Notes under the pieces: model-generated
The model's input: the letters and a program-made list of their open reading frames with translations, nothing else
What the model was told of the DNA's origin: nothing
Database searches by the model: none
In this document: piece after piece, positions 60,299 through 61,993 of the stretch
Position numbering within the stretch: position 1 is the first letter of the stretch
How the letters are laid out: each line of letters begins with the position of its first letter
Position numbers and translations under genes: made by a program
Assembly (NCBI RefSeq): GCF_900178005.1
Contig: NZ_FXBS01000003.1
Span: forward strand, 262,166-326,165
Source of the DNA: Tuberibacillus sp. Marseille-P3662
GTDB taxonomy: Bacteria; Bacillota; Bacilli; Bacillales; Sporolactobacillaceae
DNA length: 64,000 nt
Direction: 5' to 3'

Positions 60299-60649
60299 AT
60301 GGAAAAAACAATTACGATTGATGATAAACAGGTTAAGTTTGAATCAAAAGGGTCTACTCCCCTTCGATATAAAAAGCAATTTAATAGTGATTTTTTTACG
60401 GATTTAATGAAAATGCAAGAGTTAGCCAAGATCCAAAAAAAGAAAACCCAACCTACTTATGAAGAGATAAAAAGTTTAGATATGGAAGTCTTTTATAATA
60501 TCTGTTGGGTGTTAGCAAAGACGGCTGATCCAAATATACCAGAACCGTTGGAATGGCTAGATAAGTTTGATGTGTTCCCTCTGGTCAATATTCTCACTGA
60601 ATTGCAAGAACTCATAACGGCGTCTTTGCAAGACAGTAAAAAAAAATAG
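60299..60649 (+). CDS. Tail assembly chaperone gpG
   Basis: 116 aa; ITIDDKQVKFESKGSTPLRYKKQF then helical. Ends on the A9 run SKKK-stop that doubles as the frameshift site. Lies between tail tube and tape measure as usual. Confidence 0.9.
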   Translation: MEKTITIDDKQVKFESKGSTPLRYKKQFNSDFFTDLMKMQELAKIQKKKTQPTYEEIKSLDMEVFYNICWVLAKTADPNIPEPLEWLDKFDVFPLVNILTELQELITASLQDSKKK

Positions 60650-60864
60650 GTAGCGACAGTGGAGAGTCAGATAGTGAGCCAATCACTACTGACTCTTTTT
60701 TATATTCATGTAAACAAACCAATCTTGATCACGATGATTTAGAAACGATGACAATCGGCATGTGTATAGATTATTTCCACGAATACGTCGAGCAAAACAA
60801 GCCTGAAAAAGAAAAGAAAGCAAAATCAAGACGAGCTACACAAGCTGATTTTGATGCTTTTTGA
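60299..60864 (+). CDS. Tail assembly chaperone gpGT by -1 frameshift
   Basis: At the A-run 60638-60646 a -1 slip enters a frame open to the TGA at 60862-60864, giving about 188 aa. The extension reads ...DLETMTIGMCIDYFHEYV...RRATQADFDAF, the classic T-domain ending, so the frame is real even though it has no start codon of its own. G and GT together chaperone the tape measure protein. Confidence 0.88.
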
Positions 60865-60871
60865 TACAAAA

Positions 60872-60911
60872 CCTCACCTCTTGCTATGGTATAATATTAA
60901 TAGAGGTGAGG
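60872..60911 (+). promoter_or_regulatory. Hairpin with internal promoter before the GIY-YIG gene
   Basis: CCTCACCTCT (60872-60881) pairs perfectly with AGAGGTGAGG (60902-60911), which contains the RBS. The 20-nt loop holds an extended -10, TGGTATAAT (60887-60895). Transcripts from it would begin near 60902 and lack the left arm, leaving the RBS free; read-through transcripts would hide it. Confidence 0.75.
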
Positions 60912-60914
60912 GTG

Positions 60915-61964
60915 ATGAAAGGCGTAATCTATAAAATTGAAAATCTAGTAAATGGCATGGTTTACGTTGGACAGACAGTAGTGGGATTTGAAACTAGAAC
61001 ATCAGCGCATAAAAGAGCGTTATTGAGGAACGAACATAATAATGATCATCTTCAAAGAGCATGGAATAAGTATGGGAAAGATAATTTTTTGTTTTCCGTT
61101 ATAGAAGAAATATCCATTGATGAATTGGATAAAAAAGAAATTGAATGGATTGCGCATCATAGAAAAACGACAGGTTCTTATAATCTGGAAAGTGGCGGTA
61201 ATAAGAATAAGACACATAGTTCATACACGAAAGCAAAAGTTTCTAAAGCAACTAAAGAAGCATTCAAAAGACCAGAAATTGCAAATAAATTAAAAGAGGC
61301 TGCCAACAAAAGAAGAGGTAAAAACAATTATAACGCAAGGGAAATTATTTGTGTAACGACTGGTGAAATATTCGAAACATTATATGACGCATCTAAAAAA
61401 TTTAAAATTGACATAAACGCCATTTATAAGTGTTGTAAAGGTATATACAAAAGCGCTGGTAAATACACGAATGGAAATCCGATTCAATTCGCTTATTATG
61501 AAAAGGGTAAAACGTACAAAGAAAAAGAAATTAAAGGGCTGTATGAACGTAAAAGGGTTGTTTGCACAAATACTGGTGAGATTTTTGATTCAGCAACAAA
61601 AGGCGCTAAAAAATATGGCCTTTCGCAAAGTACTGTATCAAGTTGTTGCAAAGGTGAAATTAAATCAGCAGGAAAGCTACCTAACGGCGAATATTCTGTA
61701 TGGGTTTATGAAGATGACTATGATCCGAATAATGATTATTCGTTTAATAGACATAAAGGGAAACATAATCCAAGAGCAAAAAAGGTTATTTGCTTAACTA
61801 CTGAAGAAGTTTTTGACACCATGCAAGAAGCCGGAAAAAGATATGGAATAAAAACACCTTGTAAAATTTCATTAGCTTGTAGAGGGAAAAGAAAACACGT
61901 TGGCAAATTGGCAGATGGCACAAAACTAAAGTGGTCATATTACGAAGTTGAAGCATCCAATTAA
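60915..61964 (+). CDS. Freestanding GIY-YIG homing endonuclease with three NUMOD1 repeats
   Basis: 349 aa from ATG 60915. Nuclease domain 1-95: GVIYKIENLVNGMVYVGQT, Arg/His region SAHKRALLRNEHNND, catalytic Glu in EIEWIAHH. A basic linker follows, then three NUMOD1 DNA-binding modules (each VxCxxTGEIFxT... through KSAGK). More AT-rich than the tail genes; it has its own promoter and terminator and separates the chaperone genes from the tape measure. Confidence 0.93.
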   Translation: MKGVIYKIENLVNGMVYVGQTVVGFETRTSAHKRALLRNEHNNDHLQRAWNKYGKDNFLFSVIEEISIDELDKKEIEWIAHHRKTTGSYNLESGGNKNKTHSSYTKAKVSKATKEAFKRPEIANKLKEAANKRRGKNNYNAREIICVTTGEIFETLYDASKKFKIDINAIYKCCKGIYKSAGKYTNGNPIQFAYYEKGKTYKEKEIKGLYERKRVVCTNTGEIFDSATKGAKKYGLSQSTVSSCCKGEIKSAGKLPNGEYSVWVYEDDYDPNNDYSFNRHKGKHNPRAKKVICLTTEEVFDTMQEAGKRYGIKTPCKISLACRGKRKHVGKLADGTKLKWSYYEVEASN

Positions 61965-61977
61965 GGGTGCTTTTTTT
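61951..61977 (+). terminator. Terminator of the GIY-YIG gene
   Basis: AAGCATCC-aattaa-GGGTGCTT overlapping the stop codon, then T7. It lies inside the late operon, just ahead of the tape measure gene. Confidence 0.85.
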
Positions 61978-61993
61978 ATACCTTTAAAGGTAG

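Follow-up and report, generated by a model that had tools for sequence, protein, structure and literature searches.

A GIY-YIG homing endonuclease gene in a prophage tail operon is read here, with a probability of about 0.62, as part of a self-contained mobile cassette in which endonuclease translation would be set by where the RNA begins. In read-through RNA from the tail operon, both arms of an inverted repeat upstream of the gene would be present and would fold, hiding the Shine-Dalgarno sequence (SD) and part of the AUG, and little endonuclease would be made. RNA from the cassette's own extended -10 element, which lies in the loop, would start at the right arm, lack the left arm and be translated. 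Endonuclease expression would then be set by the cassette's promoter and insulated from tail-gene transcription. The features are given below by their positions in the window (the whole 64-kb stretch of DNA analysed).

60299..60649, + strand: G-like tail gene ORF, 116 aa (phrog_709), with a run of A at its end and then TAG
60640..60864, + strand: T-like extension, -1 with respect to the G frame, with stop TGA at 60862-60864; a frameshift is suggested by the frames
60865..61980, + strand: inserted segment, edges approximate, from comparison with 17 insertion-free relatives
60872..60881, + strand: left arm, CCTCACCTCT, complementary to the SD and absent from RNA begun at 60902
60885..60895, + strand: extended -10 element TATGGTATAAT in the loop, with a predicted start at about 60902
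60902..60911, + strand: right arm, AGAGGTGAGG, holding the SD GAGGTGA (60903-60909)
60915..61964, + strand: GIY-YIG homing endonuclease, 349 aa (Pfam, PHROG)
61950..61977, + strand: intrinsic-terminator-like hairpin and T run, with the endonuclease stop TAA (61962-61964) in the loop
61994..64000, + strand, continuing beyond the window: tape measure protein gene (PHROG match, relatives)

The last 9 kb of the window were identified from PHROG matches as a head-tail operon containing portal, head protease, major head protein, connectors, tail terminator, major tail protein, G-like protein and tape measure protein. The endonuclease locus lies within a 411-kb contig of a 3.68-Mb genome and an identical endonuclease gene was found in a 37-kb IMG/VR contig (L002), so that the locus sits in a prophage. 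Streptococcus accounted for 137 of the 205 phage records matching the tape measure protein, and the best match was an Exiguobacterium phage (53%); these tape measure relatives make a Bacillota host likely. At the G/T pair (60637-60864), the run of A and the open -1 frame correspond to the known layout of tail-assembly frameshifts. The endonuclease protein scored 27.1 bits against PF01541 (Pfam cut-off 22.6) and matched the PHROG 314 homing endonuclease family with an E value of 3.7e-29. In a 12-row alignment of the GIY-YIG domain, Y6, Y17 and G19 were invariant and R28 and E75 nearly so, and the gene is assigned by its catalytic domain and these conserved residues to the GIY-YIG homing endonuclease family.

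Comparison was made with 17 relatives in which G and the tape measure gene were both matched (eleven same-order genomes, L503-L513, and six from IMG/VR, L516-L521; own copies L502 and L515 and the weak match L514 were excluded), and the insertion was absent from all 17. The distance from the G match to the tape measure start was 20-503 nt in these relatives versus 1,348 nt here, and in the six closest (G approximately 70-75% identical) the tape measure SD directly followed or overlapped the T stop. Promoter, dyad, gene and 3′ terminator-like hairpin were therefore taken as one unit of approximately 1.1 kb. On this comparison the gene interrupts a site left whole in the relatives, which was used as the sign of mobility, and dyad and promoter arrived together with the endonuclease gene. 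A surrounding group I intron was rejected, as no Intron_gpI match at the Rfam gathering score was obtained in the window and the ORFs flanking the endonuclease directly adjoin each other in relatives, which counts against an intron. A near-direct repeat is present at the insertion ends (TGCTTTTTGATAC at 60855-60867 and TGCTTTTTTTATAC at 61968-61981) and is perhaps a trace of insertion. At the terminator-like hairpin (61950-61977), untranslated read-through RNA could stop, starving the tape measure gene, and ribosomes finishing at the endonuclease stop might open it.

The two arms form 10 bp with 100% complementarity and are spaced by 20 nt. The SD in the right arm lies five bases 5′ of the ATG at 60915, and the start predicted 7 nt past the -10 element falls at 60902, where the right arm begins. 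The original prediction had given the coordinates of the inverted repeat exactly and had correctly placed the SD in its stem; its geometry of an extended -10 in the loop and a predicted start at this base was equally exact. The window holds the pattern TRTGNTATAAT twice, the expectation being 0.48; two or more copies arose in 11 of 100 shuffles. No -35 element was found at 16-18 nt from TATAAT (60890-60895), the nearest candidate, TTGATA (60861-60866), being 23 nt away. The promoter scan paired TTGATA with TATGGT (60885-60890) in an overlapping register (9 of 12 positions), from which a start would likewise lie beyond the left arm; its overall yield was 7 sites versus 7.5 expected. From its sequence the putative promoter resembles the host sigma-A type, and its timing may for that reason be constitutive. 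Two other roles for the repeat were rejected: a terminator, for lack of a T run behind the hairpin, and an SD for a divergent gene in the left arm, since the gene upstream runs in the same direction and finishes at 60864.

RNA 60862-60940 folded at -18.8 kcal/mol (z -2.7, with 2 of 200 shuffles as low) and RNA 60850-60930 at -27.2 kcal/mol (z -5.1, 0 of 200), the latter value arising because the final codons of T pair with the opening codons of the endonuclease in an outer stem that includes the start codon. The short RNA 60902-60980 gave a z of +0.3. In the folding model the unpaired probability of the SD was 0.00 for each of seven 5′ ends placed between 60600 and 60872, 0.51 for a 5′ end at 60877 and 0.49-0.68 for eight 5′ ends tried from 60882 to 60903 (0.50 at 60902), so that past the left arm the outcome hardly depended on the exact start. 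Comparison of long and short transcripts, proposed with the original prediction, thus gave 0.00 for the long form versus 0.49-0.68 for the short. In the long RNA the start codon was hidden in part (modelled unpaired probability 0.36-0.78). As a positive control, T4 I-TevI (NC_000866) was folded with the same model and gave an unpaired SD probability of 0.00 in the long RNA and 0.68-0.73 in the short RNA, begun after the presumed late -10 element. The two-transcript logic first proposed for this locus therefore held in the folding models, as it did for the I-TevI control, and the mechanism itself is what we infer from it. In the cell, the promoter would be active and initiate at about 60902, the hairpin would block ribosomes, and the arrangement would bring a biological benefit.

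Recurrence of the arrangement was examined in loci gathered by several scans. A scan of IMG/VR for CACCTC/TGNTATAAT/GAGGTG returned at least 120 stretches, mostly with non-GIY-YIG genes among the matches listed; the longest dyad among the matches listed was one of 20 bp that surrounds TGATATAAT and lies upstream of a truncated GIY-YIG gene (L106). Scans for the spacing of TATAAT, SD and GIY-YIG motif returned 19 and 53 stretches from IMG/VR and 21 from genome contigs, and two further scans returned at least 120 stretches each. The GIY-YIG set was drawn from all gathered loci, including the matches listed; L329, L334 and L337 were dropped as not GIY-YIG and L190 and L275 were moved to it from the controls, giving a total of 44, mostly fetched by a TATAAT near the SD and not by dyads. 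Controls were phage genes with TATAAT-GAGG-ATG spacing, with hosts unmatched, and numbered 108 in the SD-accessibility test (without L488). After removal of near-copies, 38 GIY-YIG genes and 105 controls were used in the pairing test, in which the upstream part lying outside the predicted local transcript was scored for pairing with the RBS and ranked against its own shuffles. As the window gene had been found beforehand by an earlier reader, counts are also given without it.

A pairing rank of 0.05 or below was obtained for 11 of the 38 GIY-YIG genes with TATAAT near the SD versus 10 of 105 controls (one-sided Fisher p 0.006; 10 of 37 without the window gene, p 0.012), and a one-sided Mann-Whitney test gave p 0.0004 on ranks and 0.0007 on energies. 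The eleven positives were the window gene, L106, L186, L200, L367, L378, L358, L362, L201, L202 and L379, and their arm sequences differ. In nine of them the model exposed the SD more in the short RNA than in the long one; for L186 and L200 the short RNA was also predicted to hide the SD (0.11 and 0.06), and no switch is predicted. The dyad was less perfect in L192, L193 and L208, close relatives of L106 outside the eleven. The SD-accessibility test was weaker (8 of 44 versus 7 of 108, one-sided p 0.033; 0.063 without the window gene). As 10 of 105 controls also reached the threshold, the arrangement is not exclusive to endonucleases and other genes may use it.

Several further dyads were noted in the gathered loci. 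In three related GIY-YIG genes (L348, L364 and L371), CTCCCA/TGGGAG or CTCCAC/GTGGAG flanks the SD in the manner of a paired change, with shuffle ranks that were not significant (0.11, 0.42 and 0.50). Dyads of 12 bp, CACCTCCTTTCT ... AGAAAGGAGGTG around TGCTATAAT or TGTTATAAT, were present in L040, L065, L074 and others, before several different short phage genes, and gating of this kind may also operate beyond endonucleases. L360, a gene of 348 aa that is not GIY-YIG, was one of the strongest controls (rank 0.01), with ACCCTCTCTTAT ... ATAAGGGAGGGT around TATGGTATAAT, and at L055:3017-3057 (reverse strand) a 14-bp dyad AACACCTCTTTTCT/AGAAAAGAGGTGTT around TGATATAAT precedes a 127-aa ORF. Rfam matches to RAGATH-18 and int-alpA RNA were found at L193:2344-2415 and L208:4714-4783, on contigs of GIY-YIG genes.

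The dyad is symmetrical about the promoter and might instead act in the DNA, as an operator around the -10 element bound by the endonuclease or a repressor, with the RNA hairpin as a by-product. Autorepression of I-TevI is described in PMC2988022, and the window endonuclease matched NUMOD-like and I-TevI DNA-binding models, both below cut-off. Against an operator, the right arm coincides with the SD, the fold extends to the start codon, and the recurring cases share complementarity to the SD though their arm sequences differ; we regard this explanation as unlikely, and the two roles are compatible with each other.

The generality of the arrangement was limited. In a GIY-YIG set gathered without regard to promoters, SD accessibility was not shifted relative to neighbouring genes (56 versus 392, p 0.45), and general SD sequestration in GIY-YIG genes was rejected. 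An SD hidden in the long and open in the short RNA was found in 6 of these 56 genes versus 15 of 392 neighbours, and together with a nearby -10-like hexamer in 2 of 56 (the window gene and L313) versus 2 of 392. Among 36 homologue loci besides the window gene and L106, of which 33 had a start that could be found, a comparable dyad was present only in L005, where the -10 lies in the dyad loop and the SD just outside the stem. Starts were missing for four of the 38 rows of this survey (L014, L106, L158 and L159), those of L158 and L159 because the match was on the minus strand. In L008 a 15-bp AT-only dyad with TATAAT within its arms leaves the SD outside and was not counted. A dyad over the SD was absent from L160, the nearest order-level homologue, in a survey of 26 loci of which 8 with a minus-strand match were read on the wrong strand; the promoter-blind scan took both strands. 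L106 and L160 appeared intron-like by eye, yet gave no Intron_gpI match, and among nine sources L170 alone matched. Conservation in homologues, on which the prediction had been staked, was therefore divided: the nearest homologues mostly lack the dyad, and GIY-YIG genes with TATAAT near the SD are enriched for similar arrangements. The switch is at most one among several control modes for GIY-YIG genes.

These results bear on whether a compact promoter beside an SD acquired its upstream complementarity by accident and without a regulatory role, in a feature picked out of a long window, with the arm missing from most homologues and similar pairing in the 10 of 105 controls. When the 43 nt upstream were shuffled with the -10 element and all downstream letters held fixed, an arm of at least 10 bp over the SD arose in 13 of 20,000 shuffles. 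A survey of 1,993 gene starts was taken from the gathered loci minus those fetched for dyads, with an SD of at least 4 nt sufficing for GIY-YIG genes and at least 5 nt being needed for others. The SD was covered by a perfect arm of 10 bp or longer in 2 of 129 GIY-YIG genes (the window gene and L379, each with TATAAT between the arms) versus 0 of 1,864 others, and by one of 8 bp or longer in 2 of 129 versus 8 of 1,864, with TATAAT between the arms in 0 of those 8. The rarity in shuffles and in non-GIY-YIG starts, together with the enrichment among GIY-YIG genes with an adjacent -10, makes accident improbable. Translational coupling, in which the ribosome ending the -1 frameshift product would open the left arm (the gene otherwise being off) and a small amount of endonuclease would come from read-through RNA, tied to tail-gene translation, is very unlikely: the T stop lies 7 nt 5′ of the left arm, the outer stem uses T codons and the SD opens to 0.51 in a model where the ribosome reaches as far as 60876, but the frameshift is read from the frames alone and the ribosome footprint and timing are assumed.

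The element is accordingly considered real and probably functional, working like the I-TevI switch but with a promoter of host type and a cleaner geometry. If control by RNA origin does operate here, it recurs for selfish genes in busy operons and is not a T4-like peculiarity, and it would explain how an endonuclease gene can stand before the tape measure gene without overproduction during tail-gene transcription. The locus offers a compact test case, with two RNAs from one short stretch. A wider reading, in which a portable switch of the T4 type driven by a host promoter is common in phage GIY-YIG endonucleases as a means of insulating their expression from the genes around the insertion, and was either gained repeatedly with unrelated sequences or inherited in the group of I-TevI and then rewritten, is put forward only tentatively; its layout would comprise a promoter in the loop, a start at the SD arm and a terminator at the end, with a frameshift link as well at this locus.

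Silencing of a mobile gene on impinging RNA is known from IS10 and other insertion sequences, in which an inverted repeat hides the RBS and translation of read-through RNA is prevented; the window gene is alike in this respect, and differs in that those are transposase elements with terminal repeats. Among phage endonucleases, structures hiding the RBS are described for I-TevI, I-TevII, I-TevIII, T4 segB and Aeh1 mobE in PMC2988022, where the hiding structure is also described as absent from the I-TevI late RNA and I-TevI as repressing its own late promoter. By the same source, segB of T4 and mobE of Aeh1 are free-standing phage endonucleases with similar promoter and RNA-structure arrangements; both belong to phages of the T4 kind, mobE is an HNH enzyme, and the likeness is one of description. 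The terms 'hairpin' and 'promoter' are absent from the main text of a review of bacterial group I introns (PMC3984707). A search covering titles and the openings of abstracts, with few subscription journals, returned no title on such control in Bacillota phages, which counts weakly towards novelty.

A tree built from 47 GIY-YIG domains placed the window gene in a ten-row group with I-TevI (support 90/83), together with L005, the gene of Staphylococcus phage IMEP5 (L186) and its relative, L160, L332 and the L192, L193 and L208 genes; I-TevI itself forms a long branch. That the window gene is unrelated to I-TevI, as the original prediction held, is accordingly doubtful. A single origin of the feature was not favoured, since a 14-row label required 11 changes and 142 of 500 shuffles were as low; the label was assigned partly by eye, with L005, L313, L372 and I-TevI added and the truncated L106 excluded. 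Shared inheritance within the ten-row group and repeated gain elsewhere are both possible. By eye, CTATGGTATAAT...ATAGAGGTGA of IMEP5 nearly equals the promoter-SD stretch of the window; MAFFT did not align the two SDs in register, and the near-identity may reflect common descent. The IMEP5 gene lies among terminase ORFs, perhaps in an intron, with no Rfam match for L186, and is 76% identical to L200 (IMG/VR, same contig as L522). Both have an upstream-RBS pairing rank of 0.01 and share the tree group of the window gene, from which they differ in a shorter inner stem and in a short RNA predicted to hide the SD too.

The closest likeness is to I-TevI, also a GIY-YIG enzyme, with the SD hidden in the long RNA and open in the RNA from its own promoter. 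The I-TevI dyad, ATAAATACTTCT/AGAGGTATTTAT, carries AGAGGT in its right arm, as does that of the window gene. Its -10 element, which we take to be AATAAATA from the late consensus, overlaps the left arm, whereas that of the window gene lies wholly in the loop and the whole left arm would be lost from the short RNA. I-TevI lies in a group I intron (td) and uses a phage late promoter, whereas the window gene is free-standing in a tail operon and has a host-type extended -10 element. The logic of transcript origin is thus already known from T4 I-TevI; the window locus departs from it in having a host-type promoter that lies entirely within the loop, in the start predicted where the right arm begins, and in being a gene that stands free in the tail operon of a prophage.
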